From the NCBI GenBank assembly GCA_964035545.1, contig OZ037767.1:237001-301000 (forward strand): DNA of 64,000 nucleotides, read 5' to 3'. The notes under the pieces were generated by a model, which ran no database searches, had not been told where the DNA came from, and saw only the letters and a list, made by a program, of their open reading frames with translations. A program made the translations under genes and the position numbers. The DNA is from Bugula neritina. Lineage: Eukaryota; Bryozoa; Gymnolaemata; Cheilostomatida; Bugulidae. Positions 1,023 to 60,554 of the stretch are shown piece by piece. Within the stretch, counting starts at the first letter, position 1. Each line of letters opens with the position of its first letter.

Positions 1023-4000
1023 CTATGTAGCTTCAGCCTGAGATCCCGAGTTCTCTGCCTGATCTTCTGCGGGCGCAGACTCCTCCTCCTGAAGTTGAGT
1101 TGCTAAAGACGCTGCGACTATCTTGTTGAGAACTTCTTCCTGATTGGCTAGTTTTGCTGGCATTCCCTTTAGCTGATACACCATCACCTAAACATGTCAC
1201 ATATACCATAGACATCTAGTTGTAGTAACATATACGATAGACATCTAGTTGTAGTAACATATACCATAGACATCTAGTTGTAGTAACATATACCATAGAC
1301 ATCTAGTTGTAGTAACATATACCATAGACATCTAGTCGTAGTAACATATAATAATCATAGACAGCTAGTTGCAGCACATTGCACGAGGTCACAACCCCAT
1401 AGAATATGCTATATCAACAAGAGGATAAGCTGACCTGGCCGGTGCTGTCCCCGACGAGGATAGACTCTGAGTTGGACGCGAAAGTAATGTTAGTCATCTT
1501 CGGTCCCGACGAGGAAACAGATATCAGAGGATCTAATGTGCTCTGAGCCAAGTCCCACACCTGTATCAGGTAACATGAGTTCTACAGTATACTATTGACC
1601 TCTGCAGTATACCACTGACCTCTACAGCATATTACTGACCTCTACAGTATACTACTGACCTCTACGGCATACTACTGACCTCTACGGCATAGTCATTGAC
1701 ACAGGCAAACACAGTGGAGCAGTATGGGGACCAGCACACGTCGTTCACACTTTTAGTAGAAGAGATGAAAGTGAGAATAGGCCTCAGTCTATCATGGCGC
1801 CACAGTCTACAAAATAGCATGGGATCATTGATTAAAGACAGACTGATATATAAATAGTAAGGGCGAGCTCTGAGCTCTGTAAACACGAGTAACCGACTTC
1901 AACATAGAACCTGGTCACATTCTAAGTTCTTAGAACTACTACATTTACTCTGACACATCATCCAACACAATGCATGTAAAGTAGGAGTATTCTAGAAGCT
2001 TCACCTGATACTCCAGTCAGCTGAGCAGCTCAGGAAGAGATTCTTACAAAATGGAGACCATCTGAGCGAGTAAACGGGTCCGCCGTGACCTTCAAATGTG
2101 TCTAAATACTGTTCGTTGTACGAGCAGGAACACTTGTGTATATATCCCTCCTCTGTACCTGCTATGTACCTACAATATACCTGCTATGTACCTACAGTAT
2201 ACCTGCTATGTACCTACAGTATACCTGCTATGTACCTACAATATACCTGCTATGTACCTACAATATACCTGCTATGTACCTACAATATACCTGCTATGTA
2301 CCTACAGTATACCTGCTATGTACCTACAATATACCTGCAGTATACCTGCTATGTACCTACAATATACCTGCTATGTACCTACAATATACCTGCTATGTAC
2401 CTACAATATACCTGCTATGTACCTACAGTATACCTGCTATGTACCTACAATATACCTGCAGTATACCTGCTATGTACCTACAATATACCTGCTATGTACC
2501 TACAATATACCTGCTATATACCTACAGTATACCTGCTATGTACCTACAGTATACCTGCTATGTACTACAATTTACCTGCTATGTACCTACAATGTACCTG
2601 CTAGGTATCCAAACTAATAGAAACTCTAAGAATATTCAGATTAACAACAAATACAACTCTTACTCTACAATAGCATTGAGCTCTACTAACATTATAGGAT
2701 CTTCTTCACTAAAGGAGAAGCAGTAACCACCAGCTAGTCTAGATATCAAAGCATCTCCTTTCTTTTCACTCTTGACTTTTCCCCCTACGTGTTGCTTCAG
2801 TTGAACTCTTTTCAGTTTGATCAGATCAGCACACTCAAAGCCTTTCCTATAAGCAGCAGAAACTGAATATAACTAATCACAGCCTCTGTAGACCACAGGC
2901 CCTGTAGACCACACCCCTTGTAGACCACAGGCCCTGTAGACCACATCCCTTGTAGACCACAGGCCCTGTAGACAGTATGTTTAGTATAATGTAGTGTGAC
3001 ACGTAGATAACATGACATCATATCCATTAAACATGGAATGCATTACTTGTATTAGCAACTCATGTTACTTCATAAATCTAGTTCGTATTATTTTACCAGG
3101 ACTGTAGGGAGTTAGTGGGAATGTAGTTTTATGGTGGTACGAGATGGGGTTGAATTTGGAAAAATTATGTAGACACAGTTGTTTGTATTGCAGGGTGATA
3201 AATACTTACCATCTTATCCACATGAATGAAATAGAAGCAAAGTTATAGGAAAATAATATTTGTGAAATACATCTATTTCTATTTCATACTAATGTCACAA
3301 GTTACAATATTGTTTATTTTACATGAAAACAAGTTCAATGTTTAAATAAAGCATAATTCTCAGTACCTCCAGTACAAGAGAGTAGACGTACCTGATAGTC
3401 TATTAAACTACCTCCAGTACAAGAGAGTAGACGTACCTGATAATCCACTAAACTACCTCCAGTACAAGAGAGTAGACGTACCTGATAGTCTACTAAACTA
3501 CCTCCAGTACAAGAGAGTAGACGTACCTGATAATCCACTAAACTACCTCCAGTACAAGAGAGTAGACGTACCTGATAGTTTACTAAACTACCTCCAGTAC
3601 AAGAGAGTAGACGTACCTGATAATCCACTAAACTACCTCCAGTACAAGAGAGTAGACGTACCTGATAATCCACTAAACTACCTCCAGTACAAGAGAGTAG
3701 ACGTACCTAATAGTCCACTGACACACTCTCCCGTCTGCAGAGATGGAAATTAGAACTTCCTGGTTTTGTGATGGATCGTCACCTGACAAAGAGTATATAT
3801 TTATATATGGCATACATAGTATATTATACACAGAGAGTATATATATTATATATAACATACACAGTATATTATACACAGAGTATATATTACATATACTATA
3901 CGCAGTATACTATACACACAGAGTATATATATTATAAAGCTATAACTCACCCTTCCCCTTCTCTTTCTCAATCCACTTTAGCTGCCATATTGGCGCCGTG

Positions 4001-7000
4001 TGCCGATGGTTGTTCTCGAACGTGTCAAGGACGGGGTCAGACTCGGAGACCTTGACATTGTAGACTGCTATGGTGCCGTCATACAACCCCACGGCTAGCA
4101 GGTTGGGGTTAGTGCTAGAGAAGTCCATGGCAGTCACACCAACCTCGCTGTGAAATACTCTGCAATGGACGTGTCACCATGTAATATCACATCTAGATAC
4201 ATTGTACATTACACTAAGTGTGTGTGTGGCCAGGTAATATCACATCTAGGTACATTGTACATTACACTAAGTGTGTGTGTGGCCAGGTAATATCACATCT
4301 AGGTACATTGTACATTACACTAAGTGTGTGTGTGGCCAGGTAATATCACATCTAGGTACATTGTACATTACACTAAGTGTGTGTGTGGCCAGGTAATATC
4401 ACATCTAGGTACATTGTACATTACACTAAGGGTGTGTGTGTGGCCAGGTAACACTATAGCTATTAGTAACATAGTATCTGTCTGGTGAGAAGTACCTTTC
4501 TGGATAGTCTGGGTTCTTAAGGGACCAACAGGCTACCAGCCCTCCTTTCTGGTTGACAAACTCAAACTGTCCGTAGCCAAAAGCTATGAGGTCAGGGTTG
4601 GTGCGATTCCACGCGGAGCAACTTGCGTTCTTTCCTGTCAGATAATACAGTATAACATATACAATATACAGTATATAATACAGTATAACATGTACAATAT
4701 ACAGTATATAATACAGTATAACATATACAATATACAGTATATAATACAGTATAACATGTACAATATACAGTATATAATACAGTACAACATATACAATATA
4801 CAGTATGTAATACAGTATAACATATACAATATACAGTATATAATACAGTGTAACATATACAATATACAGTATATAATACAGTATAATGCATAGTCTTAGG
4901 ACCTACCTTTAGTAAGGGGGCAGAGATAGCACCACAACCTCTCTAAGTTAGGACCTTGAGAAGTCTGGGTAATGGATGGCTCAACCAGAGCAGAAGTGGT
5001 GGCTGGGTGTGGATTAGCACCATCAGCTGGAGTTACTTCCTCTTGCTAGAGTATTGTGCAGAGTAAGTTGATATAGTGTTAGTACAGAGTAAGTTGATAT
5101 AGTGTTAGTACAGAGTAAGTTGATATAGTGTTAGTACAGAGTATGTTGATATAGTGTTAGTACAGAGTATGTTGATGTGTAGTGTTAGTACAGAGTAAGT
5201 TGATATAGTGTTAGTACAGAGTATGTTGATATAGTGTTAGTACAGAGTAAGTTGATATAGTGTTAGTACAGAGTATGTTGATGTAGTGTTAGTACAGAGT
5301 AAGTTGATATAGTGTTAGTACAGAGTAAGTTGATGTAGTGTTAGTATTATACAATGTAACACAGTAGCCTACCTGGGTGGATATGCAGGGTTCAAACCCT
5401 CTATAGTGGGCTAGTTTCTCCTGATACGTGTTCAGATTTATAACTCTCTCCATCATAAATAAGTTGTTTTTAAAACTGTCGGACTTCAAAACCTGGAAAT
5501 ATAAATTATGCATTAAATAAACTCGACTGAAATATATACCTCAGTGAGTATAACAATATATATTCTGTAGATCTCAATGAGTATAACAGTATATATTCTG
5601 TAGATCTCAATGAGTATAACAGTATATATTCTGTAGATCTCAGTGAGTATAACAATATATATTCTGTAGATCTCAATGAGTATAACAGTATATATTCTGT
5701 AGATCTCAATGAGTATAACAGAATATATTCTGTAGATCTCAATGAGTATAACAGTATATATTCTGTAGATCTCAATGAGTATAACAGTATATATTCTGTA
5801 GATCTCAGTGAGTATAACAGTATATATTCTGTAGATCTCAATGAGTATAACAGGATATATTCTGTAGATCTCAATGAATGTACCTTCTCATTCCTCTTAG
5901 CCTGTAGCTGCTGTTCTCCCTCCTCAGATGGCTCGGTAGAAGGGTGTCCCATCATTCCACCGGGTATTGACTGTGAAGAACCCAGGACGGTGTTAGATTC
6001 TTCTACTATTTTACTTATCATCGTACCTGAAACAGCAAGTACCCACTCATTACTATAGAGAGATACATGACTCACTCATTACTATAGAGAGATACATGAC
6101 TCACTCATTACTATAGAGAGATACATGACTCACTCATTACTATAGAGATACATGACTCACTCATTACTATAGAGATACATGACTCACTCATTACTATAGA
6201 GATACATGACTCACTCATTACTATAGAGAGATACATGACTCACTCATTACTGTAGAGATACATGACTCACTCATTACTATAGAGATACATGACTCACTCA
6301 TTACTCTAGAGATACATGACTCACCCATTACTATAGAGAGATACATGACTCACTCATTACTGTAGAGATACATGATTCACTCATTACTATAGAGATATAT
6401 GACTCACTCACTACTATAGAGATATATGACTCACTCATTACTATAGAGAGATACATGACTCACTCATTACTATAGAGAGATACATGACTCACCCATTGCT
6501 GTGGAAGTTGTGTGTAAACTTCTTTTAATGTGACTCATGTTGCTCGTGAGAGACATATTTTTAGCAGCAGATGCGGCAGCACCTTCCTCTTGCTGTCCGC
6601 TGCCAGGTCTAGCTGCAACTTGAATATCCCCTGTAAGTTGCAGATAAGGTATGTAGGTTACAGATAAGGTAGGTTACAGATAAGGTAGGTTACAGATAAG
6701 GTAAGTTACAGATAAGGTAGGTTACAGATAAGGTAGGTTACAGATAAGGTAGGTTATAGATAAGGTAGGTTACAGATAAGGTAAGTTACAGATAAGGTAG
6801 GTTACAAATAAGGTAGGTTACAGATAAGGTAGGTTATAGATAAGGTAGGTTACAAATAAGGTAGGTTACAGATAGGGTAGGTTACCCTGTTTGTTGGGGT
6901 TTGCTGCCTCTTCCAGCTGCTGAGTTAGCTCATACGTGTCGTACATGTCCCAGTTGGTGGCCATCAGCGCAATGTCATTGTGACCAATCTTATCTAAAAC

Positions 7001-8834
7001 ATCATTGGCTACCAGTAACATCTGTGATATCATTGGCTACGTATCAGTAATACTTCATCATGCGGCATACTTAATGTCATTACACAAAAGTGATACAGAG
7101 TAAAGTGTGGAGAACCTGTCTGAACAGCCTTGAGTTTTGGAGGGTGATTGAAGGTCATCATTCCTCTCTCTGTGTAGAGGTCATTGCCGACTCGATTCTT
7201 GCACAACTCATCGTACTTCTCATTGCGTTCCTTTATACTCTTAGTTTCCGGCTCTTCCGTGGAATGGCAGGTTCCGTTAATGTCGAGCAGCCATATTGTG
7301 GAGGTTTCCTTGAAAACCAACAAATCATATATATTACACTACATAATAGGTATATTATACAATATATCCTGTATATTATACACATATTCTGTATATTATA
7401 CACAGAGACTATATATTATACTACATATTATATATTATACACAGAGACTATATATTATACTACATATTATATATTATACACAGAGACTATATAGTATACT
7501 ACATATTATATATTATACACAGAGACTATATATTATACTACATATTATATATTATACACAGAGACTATATATTATACTACATATTATATATTATACACAG
7601 AGACTATATATTATACTACATATTATACATTATACAAAGATACTATATATTATACTACATATTATATATTATACACAGAGACTATATATTATACTACATA
7701 TTATATATTATACACAGAGACTATATATTATACTACATATTATACATTATACAAAGATACTATATATTATACTACATATTATATATTATACACAGAGACT
7801 ATATATTATACTACATATTATACATTATACAAAGATACTATATATTATACTACATATTATATATTATACACAGAGACTATATATTATACTACATATTATA
7901 TATTATACAAAGAGACTATATATTATACTACATATTATACATTATACAAAGAGACTATATATTATACTACATATTATATATTATACAAAGAGACTATATA
8001 TTATACTACATATTATATATTATACACAGAGACTATATATTATACTACATATTATACATTATACAAAGAGACTATATATTATACTACATATTATACATTA
8101 TACAAAGAGACTATATATTATACTACATATTATATATTATACAAAGATACTATATATTATACTACATATTATATATTATACAAAGATACTATATATTATA
8201 CTACATATTATATATTATACAAAGATACTATATATTATACCGTCAAAACCAGAGTCACTTCTTTCTCTAGATCTGACTCTGTTAAGTCTTCCTTTGGCTC
8301 CTCTTTCTGAATTTGCCCCCAAGTAGATAAATCCTTAGGAGCTGCCGCAGGTGCTGTGACAGCGTGATGTGATCCTCCGTCAGCTGCTGCCTCGTCGCTC
8401 ACAGATATTGTGTCAGAGTCACTCGCTGCCCCTGACGCAGAGAACACAGACCTGGTAAATGGGCCGCCACCAAACATCGTGCTGGCATTAACTGTTCCCT
8501 GATAAATGGATGCCTGAGACTGCAGGTCAGTTGGAGTTCCAGCTTGACTACCCTGATCAACGAGCAGATTACTTTGATTTTTCCGAACTTGAGCTGGGTT
8601 GAGAAAAAGTAAAGGCTGGGGAGTAACATCTTTACCAGTTTCTTGGTCTATTACAGACACAGGTGGTTTGTATGTAGTGTGAGCTTCGGCTACATTTCTA
8701 CCGCTTCGGGACGAAGACAGAGCTGTTCTAGAAGCGTGTACACTCCCGGTACCTCCGAATTTACTTCGACTAACAGTGGATTGAGCTCCTGCATGGTGCG
8801 ATCGTTTACTGGTCACACTAGCATTAACAGGCAT
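1023..8834 (-). CDS. DNAI4: Dynein axonemal intermediate chain 4 (WDR78), 15 exons
   Basis: Seen: exons at 8241-8834, 7116-7308, 6886-6993, 6493-6630, 5884-6026, 5373-5492, 4907-5045, 4496-4634, 3951-4159, 3707-3782, 2687-2846, 2005-2150, 1686-1806, 1435-1560 and 1023-1187 keep one frame (about 858 aa) through GT-AG junctions. The Ser/Thr-rich N-terminus carries DQETGKDVTPQPL, followed by TIWLLDI and GNDLYTERGMMTFN, then VMERVINLNTYQ. A C-terminal WD40 propeller includes AVGLYDGTIAVYNV, SISADGRVCQW and VGDSTGQVMVYQLK. Known: these blocks and the length match WDR78/DNAI4, an intermediate chain of inner-arm dynein f/I1 needed for ciliary motility. The start is the ATG at 8834. Odd: the junction between exons 11 and 12 is uncertain, because the canonical sites drop about four residues of the family motif before EGYIHKC. 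Nearly every intron is one tandem array. Confidence 0.93.
1206..1350. repeat. 29-bp minisatellite, DNAI4 intron 14
   Basis: About five copies of a unit containing acatctagttgtagtaaca. The array ends about ten bases from the acceptor of the last exon. Confidence 0.9.
1572..1691. repeat. 20-bp array copying the exon 13 donor, DNAI4 intron 13
   Basis: On the coding strand the unit is TATGCCgtagaggtcagtag with variants. Its first six bases equal the last six bases of exon 13 (ending at 1686), followed by that exon's donor gtagag. About five to six copies are present. Confidence 0.9.
2150..2607. repeat. About 20-bp minisatellite, DNAI4 intron 11
   Basis: Repeats of tacctgctatgtacctacaa fill the intron next to the exon 12 acceptor. 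On the coding strand each unit has a cag|gta string like the acceptor itself. Open frames on both strands here come only from the repeat. Confidence 0.9.
2883..2975. repeat. Short array in DNAI4 intron 10
   Basis: About three 32-bp copies containing ccctgtagaccaca. The rest of this intron, 2976-3360, holds no recognisable feature. Confidence 0.8.
3362..3706. repeat. 45-bp array copying the exon 10 end and donor, DNAI4 intron 10
   Basis: Seven to eight copies. On the coding strand each holds GTGGAYTATCAGgtacgt, close to exon 10's own end GTGGACTATTAGgtacgt, so each copy is a potential 5' splice site. Confidence 0.92.
3793..3945. repeat. AT-rich array, DNAI4 intron 9
   Basis: Imperfect units based on acacagagtatatat fill the intron between exons 9 and 10. 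Confidence 0.75.
4176..4450. repeat. 53-bp minisatellite, DNAI4 intron 8
   Basis: Five near-identical copies containing ggccaggtaatatcacatct. Confidence 0.9.
4640..4886. repeat. 34-bp minisatellite, DNAI4 intron 7
   Basis: About seven copies of a unit with cagtataacatatacaatat, starting six bases from the exon 8 acceptor. Confidence 0.9.
5055..5345. repeat. 26-bp minisatellite, DNAI4 intron 6
   Basis: About eleven copies with gagtaagttgatatagtg fill the intron between exons 6 and 7. Confidence 0.9.
5539..5875. repeat. 33-bp minisatellite, DNAI4 intron 5
   Basis: About ten copies containing gatctcaatgagtataaca. The period is a multiple of three and the frame running on from exon 5 stays open across the whole array, encoding SLRSTEYILLY repeats if unspliced. 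Confidence 0.92.
6046..6492. repeat. 25-29-bp array copying the exon 4 donor, DNAI4 intron 4
   Basis: On the coding strand the unit begins gtgagtcatgtatctc and is preceded by AATGA, like the true junction AATGG|gtgagtcatg at 6493. About sixteen copies. Confidence 0.92.
6631..6885. repeat. 16-bp array copying the exon 3 donor, DNAI4 intron 3
   Basis: On the coding strand the intron starts gtaaccta and is built from about fifteen copies of gtaacctaccttatct, right up to the acceptor aacttacag. Confidence 0.93.
7322..8240. repeat. 39-bp minisatellite, DNAI4 intron 1
   Basis: About 22 copies containing actatatattatactacat, running from the exon 1 donor nearly to exon 2. The long plus-strand reading frame here (YIILHIIYYTQRL repeats) is an artefact of the 39-bp period. 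Confidence 0.93.
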
Positions 8835-9703: not shown

Positions 9704-9710
9704 GTTTTTT

Positions 9711-27711: not shown

Positions 27712-28117
27712 TAGCAGTAGAATGTTACTCTTCCACACATCAACTTGATGCTCTTCCTTGACTCTGTGTTTAGTTTACAGACTTGTCTTCTCTTTATTCT
27801 GGCTCAGTTATTTGCTCAAAATTATATTCTGTAAATCCTACGTTTTTTATATTATATCTTCAATATATCACATTTAAATTGTAATATGATAACACATTTA
27901 TTATAATACATTATATACACATTTATTTTAAGTTATTATATAATTTTATTATATTCAATGTCTTCATATTGTATGTTTTTTTCTACAGTGCTCAGTCACT
28001 GTTTGTTGGGAAAATTTTATACAAACTTTTCAGCAGTATTTCCTTTGAGCTAATAGTTTGAGTGAGTTGAGAGCTTTTCTCTTGACTTGAAGCATATTTT
28101 CTATCAACTCTGCTAAT

Positions 28118-28123
28118 AATAAA
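28118..28123 (+). promoter_or_regulatory. Poly(A) signal for the LRR gene
   Basis: AATAAA about 400 bases past the stop at 27711. The interval between is plain AT-rich DNA without arrays. Confidence 0.5.
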
Positions 28124-31030: not shown

Positions 31031-34729
<3,699 letters not shown>

Positions 34730-35511: not shown

Positions 35512-35519
35512 ATTCAATC

Positions 35520-36364
35520 AAAAAAGAGACGTTCAGATTAAATTAAATGAATACGTTTTAATCTCTGATGATGAGAAGTAAATGCTCTGTGGTATGCAGT
35601 TTGTCTTCTCTCTCTAATGTCAAATATTAACTCACATCTATCACAACTACCAGTGCTTTTATACTAGAAGAAGCATGATGTCAGTTGCTATAACGATGAC
35701 TAATCAACAAATGCTGTTACGGCATAGACCTCAATGTTTTATACAGTATATTTAGTTAGCACCCATTGATTTCTAGAATGTCTGGAATAGAATTATCCAC
35801 TTGCACACTTAGGCCAAAAGAATGTATAAACTAAAGAGAATTAACATAATAATGAGTTGATGGCTGAACTAAGTGCCTCTTTATGTCCTAAAACGGAACA
35901 GTTGTTTAAGGAAACATCCGTTGGTACTAATAAATAAATGACCAGTTTATTTCAAACATTTAATTTCCACTGCCAGCAATTAGTTGATGCAAAAAATTAA
36001 ATTAGAATAAATATATTAATCAAAAAATGTTACCTTTCGAAAGCATAGACACATACTTAACATATGACATACTCTTAACATTACAAGAAACTATTAATGG
36101 GAGTAGATAAATTCCAATGTATATGAAAATATGTCATAACTCATTAGCAGTTGAGGACAGGAAATTAAAACAAGCAAACTAAATGTTACGCAATGTCTGG
36201 CAGGACCAGAGTAAGATAGTGGAGGAGTAGTGAATGTGATTCCCTGGGTGGTTGGGCTACATTGTATAGAGTAATACGCACCATATAATGTATCATTGTA
36301 TCAGAATAACAGGCAAGGCCCTGCCTGGGCTACAGAGGCCCACGTATTTACGCTCAACACTCAC
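35520..36364. other. Intergenic region upstream of GPB5-like copy B
   Basis: AT-rich, without exons or arrays I can support; should contain the copy B promoter. Confidence 0.5.
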
Positions 36365-36508
36365 AATATATTATATTAATGTATAATATATTATATTAAT
36401 GTATAATATATTATATTAATGTATAATATATTATATTAATGTATAATATATTATATTAATGTATAATATATTATATTAATGTATAATATATTATATTAAT
36501 GTATAATA
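36365..36508. repeat. 20-bp AT array
   Basis: Seven copies of aatgtataatatattatatt, nearly perfect and self-complementary. Confidence 0.93.
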
Positions 36509-36831
36509 TATATGCACATATTTATGCAAATGAACTGTACACTGGGTGCAGGAACAGCCTAAGGGTTTCCCTGCTTCACATGGGAATACAGGATAATATT
36601 TAGACATCTAATCACACACATTTACAGGTACATGCATAGCATAGTACAGCATAGCACAGCAGTGTATGATTCTAATAATAATTTATTAATTTGTTTATAA
36701 AACAGCAACACTTTAATAAAACAACTTCCGGATTTTGACATCACAAGTAGAAAGTTAATTGGCAGATTTATATACATGCAGCGCAGTGTTATATAGAATA
36801 ATATATTAATATATTAATATATATAGAATGA

Positions 36832-36837
36832 TTTATT
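36832..36837 (-). promoter_or_regulatory. Candidate poly(A) signal of the CH-SAM gene
   Basis: AATAAA on the minus strand 161 bases beyond the stop codon at 36998. Confidence 0.45.
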
Positions 36838-36997
36838 ACATATTTATACAAGGTTTCATTGTAGTTTAATAATATGATAATACTATAATATAATAATAAT
36901 GTGATAATAGTAATATAATACAATACAATAATAATGATAATATGATGAAAACAATATAATAAAATAATAATAATAGGATGTTTGCAGAAAACTTCTC

Positions 36998-42900: not shown

Positions 42901-45900
42901 ACGCATGCCACCCACATACAGCTTTAACAAAGCAAGAACTTAAACTAGATTGTGAGTGAAATCAATGATATTCTCAGTGAGGATGCTATTTACTATCAAG
43001 TGTACTAATTTTCGGACTAATGGACCTTCGGACTAATGGACCTTCGGACTAATGGACCTTCGGACTAATGGACCTTCGGACTAATGGGCCTTCGGAATAT
43101 TGACTAGTCACCCAACACACCAACATGCTAATATACAATACAACACACCAACATACTAATATACAATACAACACACCAACATACTAATATACAATACAAC
43201 ACACCAACATACTAATATACAATACAACACACCAACATACTAATATACAATACAACACACCAACATACTAATATACAATACAACACACCAACATACTAAT
43301 ATACAATACAACACACCAACATACTAATATACAATACAACACACCAACCTACTAATATACAATACAACACACCAACATACTAATATACAATACAACACCA
43401 ACATACTAATATACAATACAACACACCAACATACTAATATACAATACAACATCTATTCATTAGCAAAGTTGAAAAAGAGCAGTCAGTCATTTTTTAAAAC
43501 GTTACTTGTTTTGCCAACGGCAGAATTGTCCTAAAAATAAATGACAGAAAGAAATGGGAGCTATGTTTCCACCTCCTGGAGGGCCCTGGGTCGTGTGGAG
43601 ACTCCAAATACTTCCCCTTAGCTACATCGGACAAAGGGAGTAAATCCGTATGTCATCCTTCCTTTTATTTAATGTTGAACAACGTGGGCATTGTTTAGTT
43701 TCACAATATCAGACGAAAGCCTCCAGGTTATGTTTTAATCTACTGGCAAAAATACCGCAAATAAAATAGTCCACAGTTTAAAAATTTATGAGGACTTATT
43801 TTCTTGTTTGACAAGGCATTCTAATGCAATTAGCCTTAGCTTTTAAAGACTGAGATACTCTAGAGTCTAGGGAGTCCCCTATACCACCTTCACCGAGATA
43901 GCATACTGCGATACTCTAAGGTCTAGGGAGTCTCTTTACTTCACACTGGCTGAGATAGCAGGCAAGATATGCAAAGGGTATAAGACTAGAGCAAAGAGCC
44001 AAGTCGGCCAATGACTTTTCAAAATTATTGCTTAATTCAGTTTATTAGCCCATAATAGTGTTACTATTTATATTAAATAAAGTAGATAACCAAGACAAGA
44101 CAAGCTACTGAGTGACCTGAAGGCTGCTGCAAACCGTCAATACCTCTAACAAATGAACAATTTGGTAGCTCCTTGGGTTGGTGAGAAACACTTTAGCTTC
44201 TTTCATCTTTTATTAGTAGAATAATTGCAGATAGTGGAGTAGTGATTAGGAGGCGTTGACTCTCACTTATTCAATATTTTAAGGAGTGGAAATAACTCGT
44301 ATGCAATTAAAATATAATTAAATAACAACTCTATGGTATGTTAGCATTGATTCTCCCAGTATTACATCACCAACTGTCTGCTACAACCATCCATTTATGA
44401 TACTGAGACTACACTGAGAGTTCAATAGTATTCTACAGACTCAATTTCCCCATTTAACCTGGCAAGTGGAAATAAGTCAACTTTCTTATTTTCCATGAAT
44501 AAAATTTTACTCTATTTTCGATGAAAAAAAATTTTACTCTAACTTCTGAATAATTATTACAAATAAAATGGCCTCACTGTACTAACTGAACTTGAGATAT
44601 TTTGATTAGCCCAATAGATCAAAAGTGACAGCTGGAAGACCTTACTAATGCCCAGCCACTGACCTTTTGACCAGTCTGGTCAGGTGATTGCAACTGTTTA
44701 CTTCACTTACTCCACTCAGGGGGTTACAGTGTCCCACTCAGGGGGTTACAGTGTCCCACTCAGGGGGTTACAGTGTCCCACCCAGGGGTTTACAGTGTCC
44801 CACTCAGGGGGTTACAGTGTCCCACTCAGGGGGTTACAGTGTCCCACTCAGGGGGTTACAGTGTCCCACTCAGGGGGTTACAGTGTCCCACTCAGGGGGT
44901 TACAGTGTCCCACTCAGAGGTTTACAGTGTCCCAACTGGTGTCACCCCAGATAGACGCTTCCCAGTTAGACGTTGTTTATTTATTTTGGTACAATATATA
45001 TTCTACGAGCAATTTATTTGAATATTATTGAAATATATGTATATTTAAATAAACTTGGATCAATTGCTTGTTATTTAGAACATAAATAAATTCCTTTGAT
45101 CTGCAATAACATTAATTTTGCATTTTCTATACTTTTTGCTGTTTGAAAAAAATATTTGTTAATAAGTATTGATTAAAGATCCGATCTATTATTAATGTAT
45201 TACTGCTTTTTTTCCAAACACGTATTCATGAAAATTGGGATATTATCCTAGATAGCTTATATTAGCTGTTATAGCTAATATAGGCTATAGCTATTTAGTA
45301 ATCAATGCAACATTTATATAGGTATGTTACTATATGTAAGTGCACCAAAATAAAAAATAGCGTCTAACTGGGAAGCGTCCAAGTAGAAACCGTCTAAGTG
45401 GGAAATTTAGTCTAGCGTCTATCTGGGAAGCATCTATCTGGAATGACACCGTCCCACTCAGGGGGTTACAGTGTCCCACTCAGGGGGTGCGATACTAGAA
45501 AGGTTGAGAGAATGAAGTCATAAAATACTGTAAGGAATTAATTGTATAAGAAATATTGGAGTAACGAATCAACAACATGCACACTAGTGTTGCAAACATT
45601 AGAATATGCACACTTAACACTAGACTACAGCGAGAGAGCTTGCCACAACACACAGCACGCAAGTTAAACAACACCTAGCAGCTATAAAAGTCTTTACCTG
45701 CGTCTGAATGAAGATTTTAACCTACATAGATATGTGCAACAGTAGATAATCAGAAAATACATGATATATTGTGCAACATAATAATGTAGAGTAGAATATA
45801 GAGTATAGAGTATATAATATAGTGTATAGGGTATATAATACAGTGTATAGAGTATATAATATAATGTATAGAGTATATAATATAGTGTATAGAGTATATA

Positions 45901-48900
45901 ATATAATGTATAGAGTATATAATATAGTGTATAGAGTATATAATATAGTGTATAGAGTATATAATATAATATAGAGTATATAATATAATGTATAGAGTAT
46001 ATAATATAGTGTATAGAGTATATAATACAGTGTATAGAGTATATAATATAATATAGAGTATATAATATAGTGTATAGCAGGGTTGGGGTAATTGTAATTT
46101 GTAATTGTAATTGGCTGTAATTAATTACATTTTTTCAAGTAATTGAATGTAATTGGTAATTGAGGTTTAAAAATGTAATTGTAATTGTAATTAATTACAT
46201 ATCTAATGTAATTGATTTTTACAATTACTTTGTAATTACATGTCAATTACTTCAAACTTTTAAATTTTAAAAATCTCCTTCTTTTTCTACAATGCCTACT
46301 GTTAATTAACAAGTTCAGATAGTTAGGTCAATATAGTAGGGTCATTCCATGCCAGCTCACCAAATGGCCCGCGTCTATAATTTGCGTCTCAGATTTTGTT
46401 CATGTTTACACCAAATAGACCTACACATGCCTCAAGTACTCTTCTTCAGTATTTCTGACCTGACACAATTTTTTTTAAGAACTGACTACTTTTGTGGACA
46501 AAGGTTGAGAAACATTTTGAGTAAAATTTGTGATTTCTACTTTAGACTAATCTATAAACGTCTATATCCCAATCATTTTTCTACACTGCATGAGCCTCAA
46601 AATTTGCTGTGTGATTTGATGATACCTATCAATTTGCACTAGTAGCAACACATACTACAGAATACTTTGTGTGCATATATGCAAAGTCATTGAATATGAA
46701 CAAATCTTTGTAAATTTTGAAAAATTTCAAATATTCGCCTAATCAAATTTTAAATTACTTCTAAATTGGTCTAAAAGTATAAATCACAAACTTCCCTCAA
46801 AATATTTTCTAACCATTGTTCACCAAAGTAGTAATTTCTCAAAATGTTTTTGTGTCAGGCCAGAAATATTCATGGATGGTAATCTGAACATGTGTAGGTC
46901 CATTTAGTGTAAATATGAGCAAAATCTAAGACACAAAAACGTGGGACCCCTTGAAAGTTGGTTGATTTGGTATGGAATGACTCTATAGTATCACTGTAGA
47001 AAACAAAAGAGGTTCACTGTCAACATTGCCCCTGGTAATTGGACCCTAGAAGTGATTTCTATTTATTCCTTGTGAGAACAAAAGTAATTGTAATTGTAAT
47101 TAATTACATTGCCATGTAATTGTAATTGTAATTAATTACATTCATTTTTAACTGTAATTATAATTGTAATTGTAATTGACAAATCTCCATGTAATTGTAA
47201 ATGTAATTAATTACATTTACATGTAATTGACCCCAACCCTGGTATAGAGTATATAATATAGTGTATAGAGTATATAATATAGTGTATAGAGTATATAATA
47301 TAGTGTATAGGGTATATAATACAGTGTATAGAGTATATAATATAGTGTATAGAGTATATAATATAGTGTATAGAGTATATAATATAATATAGAGTATATA
47401 ATATAGTGTATAGAGTATATAATATAGTGTATAGAGTATATAATATAGAGTATAGAGTATATAATATAGTGTATAGAGTATATAATATAGTGTATAGAGT
47501 ATATAATATAGTGTATAGAGTATATAATATAGTGTATAGAGTATATAATATAGAGTATAGAGTATATAATATAGTGTATAGAGTATATAATATAGTGTAT
47601 AGAGTATATAATATAGTGTATAGGGTATATAATACAGTGTATAGAGTATATAATATAGTGTATAGAGTATATAATATAGTGTATAGAGTATATAATATAG
47701 TGTATAGAGTATATAATATAGTGTATAGAGTATATAATATAGTGTATAGAGTATATAATATAGTGTGTAGAGTATATAATATAGTATAGAGTATATAATA
47801 TAGTGTATAGAGTATATAATACAGTGTTTAGAGTATATAATATAGTGCATAGACTATAGAGTATATATTTTTGCCATAGAAAAATTCATACTGCATATAT
47901 TGAACTGTATCATCTTACATTATATAATACTATAATAGCTTAATTAATATTTTATAAATGTTGTATTAAAAGGAAATGATATCATACTATATTATATTAT
48001 TGTGGCATATATGATTGTAACATTATATTACTTCCATATTATACGACTAGGATACCATATTACAATATTGTAATATGTTATACTATATTGTAGTATATTA
48101 CACTATATTATAGCATATTACACCACACTGTAGTATATTACACTACAATGTAAGATATTACAATACACTGTAATATATTACAATGTATTGTAGTATATTA
48201 CAGTATAGATGACCTACTTTGTCAGTTTACTGATTTTCTGCGGAGTTGCGTCATTTACACCGGTAGTCGGGTTTTCAGCTGGCAGAGGAGGGGGGCCCTG
48301 TGACCGTCCCTCAAAGGGATAACTATTATGTTGAATGCCAATGTTACAGTTGAGTTGCTGTTTCATGTATTCCAGATCTACTGCTAGCCTTTCTACCTCC
48401 ATAGTCAAAGAGCTGGCCGACTTTACCTCAGAAGACAGAAAGGAAATGCTCCTGGCTATAGTTGATATGTGACTTTCTAGCCTTAGAAATCTTTTATTAA
48501 TGGCTCTGAAATATATATATATTGTATTATATATACTGTATATACTGCATAGAGTAGAATGTGTATAGGGTATTGTATATACTGTATAGAGTAGAATGTG
48601 TATAGGGTATTGTATATACTGTATAGAGTAGAATGTGTATAGGGTATTGTATATACTGTATAGAGTAGAATGTGTATAGGGTATTGTATATACCGTATAG
48701 AGTAGAATGTGTATAGGGTATTGTATATACTGTATAGAGTAGAATGTGTATAGGGTACTGTATATACCGTATAGAGTAGAATGTGTATAGGGTATTGTAT
48801 ATACCGTATAGAGTAGAATGTGTATAGGGTATTGTATATACTGTATAGAGTAGAATGTGTATAGTGTATTGAATATCACAGTAATCCTACACTACACAGT

Positions 48901-51900: not shown

Positions 51901-54900
51901 AAATATACTTACCAACATATTCAGGGGAGACAACTAGGTTTGATTTATTTGGTGAAGAGATTTGAGTAGTTTTAGTTGAGTAATTCGGATGATCTACAAA
52001 CAGAATACAACATAACACTGTAGATAATATAATGTGTTTCCATGACATCATTAACCAAAAGCTATAAAAGACTGCTTGATTGGTTCACAACATGTAGCAG
52101 GGCCTATGATTGGCTGGCCTCACCTTCCTGCTGCTGCCGCTGCTGAAATCTGGTGATGTCAGCAGACAGCATCTTGGGGCTGACGCTGACTGACCTCAGG
52201 TACTTGCGGTTAGCCTGAGGCTCTGAGTCACAGCTGCCAGCTTCCAGGTTATCTTCACCGCCTAGGAGGGGTGGCAGAGGGGGCGTCCCGCACCTGGTAA
52301 CAGTCAGGACACATGGGAGTTGTGTGCACTACATAGAATATGTACAACCCTTTGACTATCTGCCAACAAGGCTAGGTATTACATTAAGACTCTTATTCCA
52401 CACCTTTCATCTTGAACAGCTGCTCCATTGATATCTTCTTCAATATCACTGATGTCTACATAATCATCATCACTATTTGACTGTTTACTTTGAATCACAT
52501 GATTCGTAGAGCTCAGTCTACGAGCAGCAACTACCGGCTGAAACAAAAACATGGTTATATATAGTTACTATGTCATTATATATACTATGTTGTTATATAC
52601 TATGTTATTATACACTATGTCATATATACTATGTTATTATATACTATGTTACTATATACTATGTTATATATACTATGTTATATATACTATGTTATTATAT
52701 ACTATGTTATTATATACTATGTTATTATATACTATGTTATTATATACTATGTTACTATATACTATGCTATTATATACTATGTTATTATATACTATGTTAT
52801 TATATACTATGTTATATTTACTATGTTATATATACTATGTTATATTTACTATGTTATTATATACTATGTTATATATACTATGTTATATATACTATATTAT
52901 TATATACTATGTTATTATATACTATGTTATTATATACTATGTTATTATATACTATGTTATATATACTATGTTATATATACTATGTTATATTTACTATGTT
53001 ATTATATACTATGTTATATATACTATGTTATATATACTATGTTATTATATACTATGTTATATATACTATGTTATATATACTATGTTATTATATACTATGT
53101 TATATATACTATGTTATATATACTATGTTATTATATACTATATTATACCATATAGTTACTATATTACATACTAACACACCTTGGCTCTGCTAGAAAGGTT
53201 GACAGCAGGTGTGTAGTGTCTGGCAGCAGGTGTGTAGTGTCTGGCAGCCGGCATCGACACTCTACGTCTCTGAGAAGAGTCATATTTCACATCCGGAGGG
53301 ATTCCTTCAGATGGCATGCGCTCAGCGGGCTTCTGCATCAGCACGTAACTTGATGACATCACAGCACACAATGTGATGACACCACAGCACACAATGTGAT
53401 GACATCACAGCACACAATGTGATGACACCACAGCACACAATGTGATGACATCACAGCACACAATGTGATGACACCACAGCACACAATATGATGACAGCAC
53501 ACAATGTGATGACACCACAGCACACAATATGATGGCATCACAGCACACAATGTGATGACATCACAGCACACAATGACTCACTTGTAAATCCTGTTGGTCA
53601 CCTCTTTCAGTCTGATCTTCTGCACATCTCACAGCCGTCTGATAATCTGGTAACTGGAGTCGGTTGATTTCAGTGGTGGTGGCAGACGTGTTGCTAGTGC
53701 TGCTACTACTCAGAGTGTTGGTTGGAGTACGAGAGCTGTGAGTAGTAGTACTAGTAGTAGTACTAGTACTTGTAATGGTACCAGTAGTGACTGGCAGCGA
53801 CTCCATCACCTGGCCATCATCTATCGTCTCATACAGTCCAGCAGAGGACTGCAGCTGCCTCCTCTGACTATAAGAGGAGCGAGGGGAGGAGCGAGGGGCG
53901 GAGCTAGGAGCATACAAGTCCGCCTTACCTGTCCTAGGCCGGCCCCTCATCACTCTACCAATCTGTTCAGAGTTGGTTACTCCTGTCACTGTGTCCTGCT
54001 GCACTGCATAGCTGGCGTATACTGAGAGCTTGCTGCTGCCCGGTGTAGGAGTCATGGAGCGGGGCACGGCTCTCACCTGGTCGGTGCTAGGGTAGGAATG
54101 TAGGTTAGGAACGCTTGTATTGTATAGACTAGGGTCATGTGATGACCTTGAGTTTGGCATGGACTGAGGTTCCGTTACACTGTATCTAGAGTGTGGGTGG
54201 GGGTACGTGTAACCCTGTAATAAACTGCAACTATATACTAACTCAAGAGCCAGTCACAGGATGTTGTTAGGAGGAGACAACCAATCAGCACCTCTGAAAC
54301 ACTGCGAGAGTATACAAACTGACTAGTAGGAAACAACACAATGTAATCACCTGCTTTCCAGGAGAGTATCTGCTCTGACTGCTCAGGCTTCTTCCCTGCT
54401 GCTGTGTCTGCACATTTGAGTCATAGAGCTGTCTACCCCTACACTGCTGCTGCTGCTGCTGCTGAAGTCTGGTGTAGTTACTATCAACTCTCTTGTCTAA
54501 AGAGTCCTCATTGTTACTGTGAGGACTGGCAGCTGAGTCACTGTCCCCAGATGGTTGACCCCGACAGAGGTCACTCGGCAGCTGACGAGTAGATGACTCA
54601 TTCACTACGACTTCCTGTAATACCAGTACTACTCACTACCAGTACTACACACTACCAGTACTACTCACTACCAGTACTACTCACTACTAGTACTACTCAC
54701 TACCAGTACTACTCACTACTAGTACCACTCACCTGTTCTCCGCTATCTACGTTAACAGACGGCGTATCATCCTGCAATATCCTCTTCAGTCTGTCTGATA
54801 TGCTGTCAGTCTCTGATGACCTGCTCTGTAATTCAGTATATTATATGATGTATTATATTATATATTATAGTATATTATGTGATGTATTATATTATATATT

Positions 54901-57900: not shown

Positions 57901-60554
57901 GTGTATACAGTGTATATAGTGTATACACTGTATATAGTGTATATAGTGTATATAGTGTATACAGTGTATATAGTGTATATAGTGTATACACTATATACAC
58001 TATATACTATATACACTGTATACACTATATACACTATATACACTATATACAGTGTATACAGTGTAGACAGTGTATACAGTGTATATAGTGTATACACTGT
58101 ATATAGTGTATATAGTGTATACAGTGTATAGTGTATACAGTGTGTATAGTGTATATAGTGTATATAGTGTATATAGTGTAGAGAATATAAAATAGTGAAA
58201 CTTACCTGATGCAGAGACTTCTGGGCAGGTGTAGCCCAGGTTGTTCAGGTGCTGCAAGCAAGTGCGGACTCTCTCAAACTGCCCTTGCTGACTCCTTATC
58301 TCGTAGTCGTGCACCTCAAAGTCCTCGGCTAGAAATAAGGACGTGCTGTACTCAGATACTATGAGGCAGTTGGTATCCAGTCATATAACAGCTAACAGCG
58401 CTGCCGCTACTGACCCACTCGTGCCCGCAGTAAAACTACCCCTCAGAGTTTGCATGAAGTAAGTAGAGAGGCTGGTGAAACACAGTAGCTAATATATATG
58501 TATGAAGTAAATAGGGGCTGGTAGCTAATATATAACACAGTCAATTGAATAGATTACAATGCTTGTGGAGTCTTGCATTATACTATCCCAACTTTTATCA
58601 GAGCTGCACAATGCACCGGGCTGAGAGTTAGATTGAAAAATAAACAATTAGTTAATGGAAAACTTGATTAGTGCACACAATAATCATATACACAGAGAGT
58701 GTGATTATGGGCAATGTAGCCAAGTGTAGCTAGCTGATGTATACAATCACCTGCATACAATCACCTGTATATACAGCCACGTAACATTGTTGACTTAACT
58801 AATATATATATTATACCAGCTTCTGTTGTTCTAATATTGTTTATATTATTAAAATTAATGAACCAAAAGGTAGAGGTGCCTGCAGAGTGGAAATAAAGAG
58901 CAGCTATTTATATTAAAAACCAACACATTACAGAAGCTGCTGTAGACTGAAAACTTACACAGGGCACTGAGCAGTAGGGGCAGGGTATACCCGTCACTAA
59001 TAGACTTTTTAAGATCAGCTTCCAACGTCTTTCCTCTGGTTTGAAGGACAGAGTTTACCCAAGTGGTCAGCTCCTGCAATACGTCATAAGATAGATACTG
59101 TAGCGTCACACAACACTCTGGTAGAAATTAGTTTGTTAGCTTATTATCACATAATGTTTCAGTCAGCAGTTGATTAAAAATACTTAAATGAAGTTCTACA
59201 AGAGAAATATAATTACAACTTATTTAGCTACAAAAATATAAATTCAACTAAAAATTAAATTTGAATTTGGCTGAGCCACACAAGTGCTTTGCTTGTGACT
59301 TTACTACAGGGTACTGACTTGACTACAGAGTACTGATTTGACTACAGAGTACTGACTTTACTACAGGGTACTGACTTGACTACAGAGTACTGACTTGACT
59401 ACAGAGTACTGACTTGACTGCAGAGTACTGACTTGACTACAGAGTACTGACTTGACTACAGAGTACTGATTTGACTACAGAGTACTGACTTTACTACAGG
59501 GTACTGACTTGACTACAGAGTACTGACTTGACTACAGAGTACTGACTTGACTGCAGAGTACTGACTTGACTACAGAGTACTGACTTGACTACAGAGTGCT
59601 GACTTGACTACAGAGTACTGACTTGACTACTGAGTGCTGACTTTACCTGAGTGCTCCAAGAAAGAGGTTGAGTTGATGACATTTTGCTGCCGCAATGACA
59701 GAGTATAAACTAGAGAAAGTGAGCTTATCTATGTCAGCATAACAACGGTAGGTAGACTTAGAGGTGATAAACTGTGAACAGGTGCAAAGTACTTGAGATA
59801 CAATGTGCTCAGACTAAACAGTCAGCTCTCAGACTAAACAGTCAACTCTGTCTACAGCTTTCAGACTAAACACGGTCAGCTCTGTCTACAGCTCTCAGAC
59901 TAGACAGTCAGCTCTGTCTACAGCTCTCAGACTACACAGTCAACTCTGTCTACAGCTCTCAGACTACACGGTCAGCTCTGTCTACAGCTCTCAGACTAGA
60001 CAGTCAGCTCTGTCTACAGCTCTCAGACTACACAGTCAACTCTGTCTACAGCTCTCAGACTAGACAGTCAGCTCTGTCTACAGCTCTCAGACTACACAGT
60101 CAACTCTGTCTACAGCTTTCAGACTAACCTCACACTGGCCTAAGGCCCAGCGTCTGTCTATCTCCACAATAGGGGTGCCTCTCCTAGCACTACGCGGAGA
60201 TTTGGCCACCAGTCTCACGCCATTCTGCCGAACTCTCAAGGCTTGTGATGAAACCAGAGCCATTCTTTCGTCTGTACAGCTGGCCTCGCTTTCAGCCTGA
60301 GCAGTTGTGTCGATGTCTTTGCTTTTCAACACAGGGTTGTGACGAACGCTCGTGGAATTAGAGAGCTCACAACTCCCAGTTAGCTTGTCAGTAGAAATCT
60401 CAAGCTTATTGGGAATCATTTCAATGAGCTCTCGGCTTTCTTGCACTTGATATGAAGGTTTATGTTGACAAACATCTGGTATGATGAGCTGAGAAGTCAA
60501 ATGATGTGCCTTGGTGAGTTCACCAGCTTTATTGCTATACAGCAATACTTCCAT
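36998..60554 (-). CDS. CH-domain and SAM-domain scaffold protein, up to 18 exons
   Basis: Seen: exons 60129-60554, 59647-59709, 58959-59073, 58206-58328, 55498-55577, 55296-55388, 54733-54825, 54351-54614, 53582-54214, 53180-53332, 52404-52537, 52124-52293, 51913-51993, 50995-51204, 49374-49536, 48218-48505, 39390-39447 and 36998-37216 join in phase. From the ATG at 59682 the product is 970 aa; with exon 1, 1121 aa. Residues 13-118 form a calponin-homology domain (ELTTWVNSVLQTRGK, RVRTCLQHLNNLGY, NGDLKALILFLSGLKNFF), most like neuron navigators. A Ser/Thr/Gln-rich linker follows, a coiled coil near 788-835, and a C-terminal SAM domain near 884-945 (MKMFLKELGYEKYLPIFEGE, LLELGLPLGP). No AAA domain is seen. 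Probably a cytoskeletal adaptor; exact family unknown. The last join spans an 8.8-kb intron. Confidence 0.8.
37244..38289. repeat. 22-bp array, last intron of the CH-SAM gene
   Basis: About 46 copies of gagtactactcaacataaca with gt and tt variants, starting about 25 bases from the last exon's acceptor. Confidence 0.95.
38470..38585. repeat. Pyrimidine-rich repeat
   Basis: Imperfect copies of caccctctctcccaccct; a strongly strand-asymmetric tract. Confidence 0.8.
38877..38985. repeat. 43-bp array
   Basis: Two to three copies containing tataatatacaccatacatg. Confidence 0.85.
40235..40662. repeat. About 36-bp AT array
   Basis: About eleven copies of a unit with agaaagaataatatatatag. Confidence 0.9.
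41084..43113. mobile_element. 2.03-kb foldback element with arms of about 0.9 kb
   Basis: The arms 41084 to about 41995 and about 42205 to 43113 are near-perfect reverse complements around a loop with (CA)n. Each end carries five tandem copies of attagtccgaaggtcc. An 8-bp direct repeat, aacacacc, flanks it (41076-41083 and 43114-43121), typical of hAT-class integration. The same 68-codon frame occurs once in each arm because they mirror each other; no transposase seen. Confidence 0.88.
43122..43450. repeat. 28-bp array
   Basis: About twelve copies of a unit with caacatactaatatacaata, starting directly after the foldback element's right flank. Confidence 0.92.
44700..44937. repeat. 22-bp array, left part
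   Basis: About ten copies containing ccactcagggggttacagtg. It resumes at 45451-45487 after an inserted element. Open frames here are artefacts. Confidence 0.93.
44938..45450. mobile_element. 513-bp inverted-repeat element inside a minisatellite
   Basis: The ends ggtgtcaccccagatagacg and, reversed, ggtgtcattccagatagatg are inverted repeats of about 35 bp; further agtctaactgggaag-like blocks extend the homology. The 22-bp array is interrupted at gtcccaact and resumes with gtcccact, suggesting an 8-bp target duplication with one change. Nonautonomous, hAT-like. Confidence 0.75.
45451..45487. repeat. 22-bp array, right part
   Basis: One and a half copies of the unit seen at 44700-44937, stranded on the far side of the element. 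Confidence 0.9.
45795..46077. repeat. 21-bp array, left part
   Basis: About thirteen copies of tatagagtatataatatagt, interrupted by the element at 46078-47241. Confidence 0.93.
46078..47241. mobile_element. 1.16-kb inverted-repeat element rich in taattaca motifs
   Basis: It starts cagggttggggtaattgtaa and ends with the inverse aattgaccccaaccctg. A 6-bp direct repeat, gtatag, flanks it (46072-46077 and 47242-47247). Removing the element plus one gtatag restores the 21-bp array unit exactly. A second element is nested inside at 46339-46983. Confidence 0.88.
46339..46983. mobile_element. 645-bp palindromic MITE nested in the larger element
   Basis: The ends gggtcattccatgcca and, reversed, gagtcattccatacca continue as an imperfect palindrome through the interior. 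A 7-bp duplication, tatagta, flanks it (46332-46338 and 46984-46990). The plus-strand frame at 46349-46642 is not supported as a gene. Confidence 0.82.
47242..47850. repeat. 21-bp array, right part
   Basis: About 29 copies of the same unit as at 45795-46077. The period is a multiple of three, so frames stay open on both strands. Confidence 0.93.
48055..48205. repeat. About 20-bp AT array next to CH-SAM exon 16
   Basis: Imperfect copies of tgtagtatattacactata, ending close to the exon's donor at 48217. Confidence 0.8.
48525..48868. repeat. 37-bp array, CH-SAM intron 15
   Basis: About nine copies with gtatagagtagaatgtgtat, starting about 20 bases from the exon 16 acceptor. Confidence 0.92.
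49027..49346. repeat. 15-bp array, CH-SAM intron 15
   Basis: About 21 copies of gctcagtggcttaga, ending about 28 bases from the exon 15 donor. The minus-strand frame SKPLSSTPLS is an artefact of the 15-bp period. Confidence 0.93.
49566..49706. repeat. About 37-bp array, CH-SAM intron 14
   Basis: Four copies containing cacgtagtggctagctgcag, near the exon 15 acceptor. The rest of this intron, 49707-50994, holds no supported feature. Confidence 0.85.
51235..51900. repeat. About 37-bp array, CH-SAM intron 13
   Basis: About eighteen copies containing catatgtatactcagggga. It begins about ten bases inside the exon 13 donor. Confidence 0.93.
52555..53150. repeat. 15-16-bp AT array, CH-SAM intron 10
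   Basis: About 38 copies of ttatatactatgtta fill the intron; open frames in all plus frames are artefacts. Confidence 0.93.
53350..53577. repeat. 23-bp array, CH-SAM intron 9
   Basis: About ten copies containing gatgacatcacagcacacaa make up nearly the whole 249-bp intron, from four bases after the donor. Confidence 0.93.
54615..54732. repeat. 16-bp array of splice donors, CH-SAM intron 7
   Basis: On the coding strand the 118-bp intron is seven copies of gtgagtagtactggta; the first copy (gtgagtggtactagta) is the functional donor of the exon ending at 54733, and the last runs into the acceptor tattacag. Confidence 0.96.
54838..55212. repeat. AT-rich array, CH-SAM intron 6
   Basis: Units of about 31 bp with tatattatagcatattatat and one-step variants. 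Confidence 0.9.
55838..55947 (+). CDS. Possible immunoglobulin-domain exon, opposite strand
   Basis: Between an acceptor-like cacccaacag and a donor AAG|gtatat lies a 110-base open block ending FNDTGTYK, preceded by LVNNILFESTA: the strand-F signature (D-x-G-x-Y) of an Ig domain. It starts in codon phase 1, as Ig exons usually do. No other Ig exon is visible on this strand, and it sits inside an intron of the CH-SAM gene, so it may be a stray or relic exon. Confidence 0.35.
55974..56262. repeat. 24-bp array
   Basis: Twelve near-perfect copies containing gatgacctatatataaata. The period is a multiple of three, so the frame from the preceding Ig-like block stays open as DDLYINIA repeats. Confidence 0.95.
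56384..58182. repeat. 1.8-kb array of a 9-bp unit and its reverse complement
   Basis: Built from gtatacagt, gtatatagt and their complements in blocks that switch orientation every few dozen bases, so the array is a chain of perfect hairpins. It fills most of CH-SAM intron 4. All reading frames on both strands are artefacts. Confidence 0.95.
59300..59646. repeat. 20-bp array, CH-SAM intron 2
   Basis: About seventeen copies of gactacagagtactgacttg. On the coding strand the first copy contains the donor gtaaagtcagcactc, and the unit reads gtcaagtcagtactctgta. Confidence 0.92.
59815..60128. repeat. About 31-bp array, CH-SAM intron 1
   Basis: About ten copies. On the coding strand the donor gttagtctgaaagctgtaga is followed by copies reading gtagtctgagagctgtaga, so the donor lies within the unit. 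Confidence 0.9.

Follow-up and report, generated by a model that had tools for sequence, protein, structure and literature searches.

Introduction

Tandem repeats that run across exon-intron boundaries have been described in amphioxus, where "mirage" minisatellites occur in Adh3 and in the globin genes BflGb6 and BflGb9 (PMC3087553). Many of their units, which measure 10 to 72 bp in Adh3 and 150 to 160 bp in the globins, carry AG/GT signals, and the repeat lengths differ. Regular splicing together with length instability is reported for these arrays, which may be general in cephalochordates and may offer a route to intron gain (PMC3087553). In humans, polymorphic VNTRs are 7.1-fold enriched in the last 5 Mb, most strongly where they are GC rich (21-fold above 60% GC), and about 40% of the structural variants are intronic (PMC7608644). 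Accounts of intron gain include duplication across an intron-exon boundary in a potato RdRp gene (PMC4974935) and the addition of introns by repeat expansion in Cryptococcus (PMC2395259).

The arrays considered here were first encountered in a 64,000-nucleotide stretch of the genome of the bryozoan Bugula neritina (the window; contig C3, positions 237001 to 301000), which lies 0.24 to 0.30 Mb from the start of a 32.4-Mb contig in an assembly of 215.8 Mb in 295 contigs. Among known systems, the mirage minisatellite of amphioxus comes nearest. As in the amphioxus account, arrays cross the exon-intron boundary (15 on the upstream and 3 on the downstream side among 72 arrays), and units carry copies of the splice site (in 15 of 17 donor-covering arrays). 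Unlike the single chordate genes of that account, most introns of three genes in a lophotrochozoan-like genome are involved here, the donor side is involved more often, and there is a gradient toward chromosome ends; regular splicing and length instability are reported for amphioxus, whereas the arrays here are known from the sequence of one assembly. Array density declines away from the contig end, with exceptions both ways, and the VNTRs of the human survey are likewise enriched toward chromosome ends. The human enrichment is strongest for GC-rich VNTRs, whereas the introns of genes near contig ends are AT rich here (GC, 0.352), and arrays take up the greater part of an intron, as far as its splice sites. 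Tandem duplication across exon-intron boundaries is shared with the potato gene (PMC4974935), but the potato and Cryptococcus cases concern new introns or extra intron copies, whereas the arrays here sit within introns of normal density. In a limited literature search, intronic arrays that bear splice sites and grow denser toward chromosome ends were not found to have been reported, and as far as that literature extends, the position effect, the extent of the arrays, and the donor-acceptor asymmetry are new.

Materials and methods

Genes were modeled with our own spliced aligner, which places a protein profile on DNA, allows GT or GC donors, requires AG acceptors, and applies light generic splice scores. 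Beyond the window, five of the dynein heavy-chain loci detected by a family search (D1 to D5; 40 kb each) were aligned to a DNAH7 or DYNC2H1 profile. D5, the DYNC2H1 locus, lies on contig C7, 0.13 Mb from the contig end, and D1 lies on C3, 0.7 Mb from the contig end; both are array rich. D2 is found 2 Mb into C4, and the array-poor interior loci D3 and D4 are on C1, 10 and 14 Mb from an end. The term "end genes" refers below to D5, D1, and the DNAI4 gene of the window (0.1 to 0.7 Mb from the end of a chromosome-scale contig) and "interior genes" to D3 and D4; the end genes are three only, sample both ends of C3 and a single end of C7, and were classed after the fact. Identity to the reference proteins was 55 to 76% in five of the six genes, with frames intact. 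The reference for D1 was a paralogue with 36% identity, and one retained D1 intron (6.8 kb) probably spans missed exons; D2 and D3, which matched the DNAH7 profile at 55 to 57% identity, may be DNAH7 paralogues. For two of the dynein heavy chains the best matches were to molluscs, Tubulanus, and Owenia (69 to 71%), which points to a lophotrochozoan animal. An Escherichia coli protein chimera was tried as a universal probe for multi-exon genes and dropped, its 24 matches (11 on small and 13 on large contigs) involving mainly the HSP70 part.

Introns were retained where the alignment was good on both sides, no gap or other intron lay nearby, and the donor was GT. This kept 251 of 288 modeled introns (47 of 49 in D5, 33 of 43 in D1, 9 of 14 in DNAI4, 45 of 56 in D2, 55 of 64 in D3, and all 62 in D4); the five DNAI4 introns removed include two examples from an earlier note on this DNA (donors at 6885 and 6492). 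A near copy of a donor region was defined as a match with at most 2 mismatches to the first 10 intron bases, with shuffled 10-mers as the control. The matrix used to score decoy donors was derived from the interior genes by training. A threshold-free recurrence profile recorded, for 89 end introns and 117 interior introns, whether a 12-mer was found again two or more times within the intron, up to 2 mismatches being allowed. Repeat units were compared pairwise for 70 of 72 arrays, units longer than 60 bp being omitted. Intron density was counted as 43 introns per 3224 aligned residues in D1, 49 per 2711 in D5 (first alignment), and 14 per 828-residue reference in DNAI4, and in the array-poor genes as 62 per 3978 in D4, 64 per 3810 in D3, and 56 per 3805 in D2.

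Results and discussion

The product of the minus-strand gene between window positions 8834 and ~1030 is dynein axonemal intermediate chain 4 (DNAI4/WDR78), and its best named matches include those of Owenia, Pecten, Lingula, and the nemertean Tubulanus (49 to 51%). Spliced alignment to orthologues gave 14 introns, all with a GT donor (AG was imposed by the aligner), and two acceptors are uncertain between the aligner and a hand model (6613 or 6631; 4965 or about 5042). Tandem arrays cover more than half of 12 of the 14 introns and, weighted by base pairs, 0.756 of the intron sequence; their cover of the DNAI4 exons is 0.015. Exon 1, an open frame from the start codon to the first donor in the spliced alignment (8241..8834, minus strand, as are all DNAI4 features that follow), borders intron 1 (7309..8240), in which a 39-bp minisatellite (7328-8240) begins at the donor and brings the array cover to 0.98. 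The unit of the 16-bp minisatellite in intron 3 (array, 6653-6885; intron, 6613..6885 by spliced alignment, with the acceptor at 6631 in the hand model) opens with the donor GTAACC, and the 27-bp minisatellite of intron 4 (array, 6044-6497; intron, 6027..6492) holds 15 near copies of GTGAGTCATG, all 15 of which begin with GT. Some arrays continue into coding sequence. In intron 10 (2847..3706), a 45-bp minisatellite (3364-3719) supplies seven further GTACGT donors and extends 13 bases into the exon (the end of ADGRVCQWTI, for which orthologues have, e.g., TDGRVTQWYI); in intron 13 (1561..1679), a 20-bp minisatellite (1581-1685) repeats the donor GTCAGT and takes in the last 6 exon bases (FACVNDYAVE; orthologue, FACVNEGAVE). 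Intron 11 (2170..2690) is the mirror case, its 22-bp minisatellite (2156-2607) running through the acceptor and 14 bases into the exon that follows. The remaining introns lie within 1188..7115; array cover is 0 in those at 6994-7115 and 1807-2004 and exceeds 0.5 in the other six (5493-5883, 4965-5372, 4635-4906, 4160-4495, 3783-3950, and 1188-1434).

The earlier note had proposed that most introns of the three large genes in the window are built of minisatellites; DNAI4, the one of these genes that the homology model covers, bears this out. It had also named six arrays as having units that carry the real 5′ splice site, which is true of five, in which most near copies keep the donor GT: 54615-54732 (6 near copies of the donor region, 6 beginning with GT), 6631-6885 (14 and 12), 6046-6492 (15 and 15), 3362-3706 (7 and 7), and 1572-1691 (4 and 4, with the real donor at 1679). 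In the sixth, 59815-60128, none of the 10 near copies begins with GT; here a 32-bp minisatellite (59823..60128, minus strand) adjoins the donor at 60128 of a minus-strand gene, and its copies have the GT out of register. Shuffled 10-mers gave mean values of 0.06 to 0.58 copies in the six arrays, and single shuffles reached 2 to 15 copies, since a shuffled 10-mer may happen to fit elsewhere in the unit. In 6046-6492, 3362-3706, and 1572-1691, the repetition extends to the last four exon bases ahead of the donor (at most 3 mismatches over 14 bases). The introns 54615-54732 and 59815-60128 lie outside DNAI4 and are based on reading frame and GT-AG judged by eye rather than on a homology model. 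The first of them is an intron-like segment (54615..54732) of a large minus-strand gene and carries a 16-bp minisatellite with the unit GTGAGTAGTACTGGTA in the minus strand; its copy count took 54619 as the segment end, and its frame and acceptor were read by eye with no orthologue. Each intron has its own unit, as the earlier note had it: none of 2,415 unit pairs, drawn from 70 of the 72 arrays, reached 80% of the best possible alignment score (nor did any pair of shuffled units), so that the related sequence across introns by which introners or a single transposable family would be recognized was not found.

Within the genes sampled, the arrays are tied to chromosome ends, a link that the earlier note had missed. 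The fraction of base pairs in arrays is 0.711 in D5, 0.403 in D1, and 0.385 in the window, compared with 0.10 in D2 and 0.014 in both D3 and D4. Among filtered introns, 72 of 89 in the three end genes contain an array (40 of 47 in D5, 25 of 33 in D1, and 7 of 9 in DNAI4; 47 of 56 when D1 is left out), as do 12 of 45 in D2, 2 Mb in, and 5 of 117 in D3 and D4 together. The arrays fill most introns of the end genes, spare the exons (cover, 0.015 to 0.025), and leave about 48 nt of non-array intron. Forty spot samples of 1.5 kb showed a negative correlation between array fraction and distance to the contig end (Spearman, -0.49; P = 0.0012), which was present both in the first 20 (-0.46; P = 0.04) and in a second 20 picked after the idea had formed (-0.54; P = 0.013). 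Grouped by distance, the samples had mean array fractions of 0.40 within 0.4 Mb (n = 14), 0.19 at 0.4 to 0.8 Mb (n = 7), 0.15 at 0.8 to 2.5 Mb (n = 10), and 0.04 beyond (n = 9). The gradient is noisy, with array-poor samples near ends (C4L at 0.05 Mb, 0.02; C7R at 0.05 Mb, 0.00; C5L at 0.1 and 0.3 Mb, 0.11 and 0.00) and array-rich samples further in (C7L at 1.5 Mb, 0.56; C3R at 2 Mb, 0.36). The exact motif (TTAGGG)5 was not found in the assembly, and the contig ends are only presumed to be telomeres.

Intron length changes less than intron content. Median length is 298 in the end genes and 266 in the interior genes (P = 0.48), and the means are 560 and 329, so that the expansion of introns claimed in the earlier note is visible in the mean and not in the median. 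The median amount of non-array intron sequence is 48 nt at the ends and 264 inside (P = 1.7e-28), or 43 nt at the ends when D1 is left out (P = 9e-23). With similar medians and so little non-array DNA, the arrays largely replace ordinary intron sequence rather than add to it. The 17 array-free introns of the end genes are short (median, 120). Intron GC is 0.352 at the ends and 0.282 in the interior; end introns, although AT rich in absolute terms, thus exceed interior ones in GC. Intron density is similar in array-rich genes (18 introns per 1,000 residues in D5, 17 in DNAI4, and 13 in D1, a value that may be low because introns could have been missed at 36% identity) and in array-poor ones (15 in D2, 17 in D3, and 16 in D4), which does not support the suggestion in the earlier note that introns arise through the arrays. 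Of the 45 to 62 intron positions in D2, D3, and D4, 9 to 15 also occur in other paralogues; for D1 and D5 the figure is 1 to 4, about the random number. These are too few for dating introns.

The positions at which arrays begin and stop were examined through recurrence and through array edges. On the donor side of end introns, recurring 12-mers rise from 1% at -36 to 15% at the last exon 12-mer, 25% at 0, and 67% at +48; on the acceptor side they fall from 65% at -60 to 39% at -24 and 9% at -12, the 12-mer that opens the next exon having 4.5%. In interior genes the values lie between 0 and 4% throughout, and the profile of the 89 end introns shows no donor spike. Recurrence affects the first 12 nt of the intron in 22 of 89 cases and the last 12 nt in 8 of 89 (P = 0.008). 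Uniform placement would start 17.3 of 87 end arrays at 6 nt or less from the donor or upstream of it, where 26 were observed (P = 0.003), and 5.5 at 0 nt or less, where 17 were observed, a number matched in 0 of 4,000 simulations. When 20 nt are reserved at the acceptor, the expectations become 31.2 and 16.6, and the donor excess is gone. The comparison of array edges with random positions that the earlier note had proposed yields, for the arrays of the three end genes, a donor excess under uniform placement and none with the acceptor reserve. Introns that are not saturated (D2, D3, and D4) contain 33 mostly low-copy arrays with modest enrichment at both ends: within 6 nt, there are 5 at the acceptor against 1.0 expected and 3 at the donor against 1.0 expected, and within 20 nt of the donor there are 7 against 2.8 (9 against 5.2 at a looser array threshold; P = 0.06).

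Arrays in the end genes overlap the upstream exon more often than the downstream exon (15 and 3 of 72 arrays, respectively; P = 0.004). One of the 15, D5 1098, is doubtful, as there is a stop in its exon tail. By gene, the upstream and downstream counts are 7 and 0 in D5 (P = 0.012), 6 and 2 in D1 (P = 0.25), and 2 and 1 in DNAI4; without D1 they are 9 and 1, and the asymmetry is carried mainly by D5. Where arrays of D5 and DNAI4 overlap an exon, the adjoining exon end shows conservation among animals in eight of nine cases (for example, ITPDVE, ALKEITVAMQ, and LVYEYVC), the ninth being D5 1098. Because these units hold old, conserved coding sequence, the arrays were seeded from the exon end and not the reverse. 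Some arrays therefore span the exon-intron boundary, with a unit that carries the exon end and the donor, and on this point the tandem duplication envisaged in the earlier note stands. The asymmetry runs in the direction that a splicing constraint would predict: a copied donor should be harmless while the exon-adjacent copy is used, whereas a copied upstream acceptor, if used, would add sequence to the mRNA.

Arrays that reach the donor multiply decoy donors, as the earlier note had anticipated. The 26 introns with an array within 6 nt of the donor contain 218 sense decoys and 19 antisense decoys (P = 0.007); over all end introns the numbers are 430 and 75, with a borderline per-intron difference (P = 0.054). 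The 46 other array introns have no consistent strand bias, 14 containing any sense decoy and 16 any antisense decoy (sums, 210 and 46), and selection against decoys inside arrays was not seen in this set. Near copies of the donor region number 2 to 51 in 15 of the 17 donor-covering arrays, and in 14 of these 15 the majority of copies retain the GT. Scores of the copies are mostly equal to or higher than that of the real donor in 9 of the 15 (with the doubtful D5 1098 included) and mostly lower in 6; an extreme is the intron of DYNC2H1 at reference residue 1493, where the real donor is equaled or outscored by 50 further copies. The real donors of the end genes were not seen to be stronger than those of the interior genes (8.22 and 7.78, respectively; P = 0.39). 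The idea that the copies might be used interchangeably, also raised in the earlier note, is argued against by frame and stops: of 14 arrays that overlap the donor (D5 1098 excluded), only 3 have a unit length divisible by 3, and in 13 a stop would be encountered within the first additional unit. Judged from these sequences, interchangeable use is unlikely, and both features would argue for use of the donor copy adjacent to the exon. As a separate observation, the 17 array-free end introns contain 0 strong decoy donors in the sense and 10 in the antisense orientation (P = 0.015), which hints that decoys are selected against in unique sequence; the interior genes have no such bias (46 and 59).

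We consider it probable that these arrays reflect rapid tandem duplication near chromosome ends acting on introns and trimmed by selection on splicing and coding, with the boundary-spanning mirage arrays as a by-product. Under this explanation, a high rate of short tandem duplication near chromosome ends would be followed by gain and loss of copies through slippage or unequal exchange, and purifying selection would halt the arrays where exons begin and ~20 nt short of the acceptor, which would place their edges at splice sites. Extra donor copies would do no harm provided that splicing uses the one beside the exon. The high rate itself may be caused by breakage and recombination near chromosome ends, as general knowledge of subtelomeric minisatellites suggests. 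The earlier note had favored duplication anchored at the donor. In such a reading, the donor itself, or U1 binding or transcription there, would trigger duplication, and arrays would grow from donors. The 26 arrays within 6 nt and 17 at 0 nt or less, set against uniform placement, and the 15 upstream overlaps against 3 downstream are what anchoring would produce, but we regard it as unlikely, since the excess vanishes with the 20-nt acceptor reserve, the acceptor side is raised as well among the low-copy arrays of unsaturated introns (5 against 1.0), and the recurrence profile lacks a donor spike.

Transcription offers another possible trigger: within gene bodies, R-loops or conflict between replication and transcription might give rise to arrays, and proximity to a chromosome end would only raise the rate. 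In its favor, array cover in the window is 0.756 in DNAI4 introns and 0.225 in the mostly intergenic positions 28001-44000, a difference that a purely positional cause does not predict. Against it, dense arrays also lie outside the genes mapped so far (e.g., 45795-47865), although gene mapping is rough; we hold a transcriptional origin to be rather improbable. The Rogers model, in which duplicated exon sequence bearing AGGT creates new introns, would account for units composed of exon sequence plus donor, and it has a precedent in the potato report (PMC4974935) and a proposal in the amphioxus globin account (PMC3087553). Intron density is not raised in array-rich genes, however, and we think it very improbable that the arrays created the introns. 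A single mobile repeat family is contradicted by the absence of related unit pairs. Tandem arrays are hard to assemble, but intact reading frames and nearly array-free exons speak against an assembly artifact, and we give next to no credence to either. If, as we tentatively suggest while thinking it somewhat doubtful, chromosome ends form a compartment of self-renewing minisatellite introns, partly seeded from exon ends, then the spliceosome would have to use reliably the most upstream of up to ~50 near-identical donors, and the compartment would be a natural test of why the first of many equal donors wins.

Boundary-spanning minisatellites, known before from a few amphioxus genes, thus occur here in bulk and are tied to chromosome position. 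Relatives from one gene family that are poor in arrays serve as controls within this genome, which helps to separate mutation, which sets where arrays arise, from splicing selection, which sets where they may stop, and the ~48 nt of non-array sequence gives an estimate of how little unique intron remains. Donor choice could be tested on the 15 natural introns in which the donor has between 2 and 51 near copies.

Other elements were noted nearby. A near-perfect 2-kb palindrome (window, 41087-43102), with arms of 424, 285, and 168 nt at 99 to 100% complementarity and 16-bp subrepeats at its ends, looks like a young foldback element. An element of ~1.15 kb with imperfect inverted repeats (46088-47240) lies between 21-bp minisatellite stretches (45795-46077 and 47242-47865); since these share a unit in another phase, it seems to have been inserted into an existing array. 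A MITE-like element of ~0.68 kb (61354-62029) has 38-nt terminal inverted repeats that are 87% complementary. Several small contigs (C113, C176, C35, and C211) have matches to conserved proteins with in-frame TAA or TAG, as would be expected of a ciliate contaminant in the assembly. The window also encodes, at 26821-27711 on the plus strand, a leucine-rich-repeat protein in a single open frame within which no tandem array is listed.
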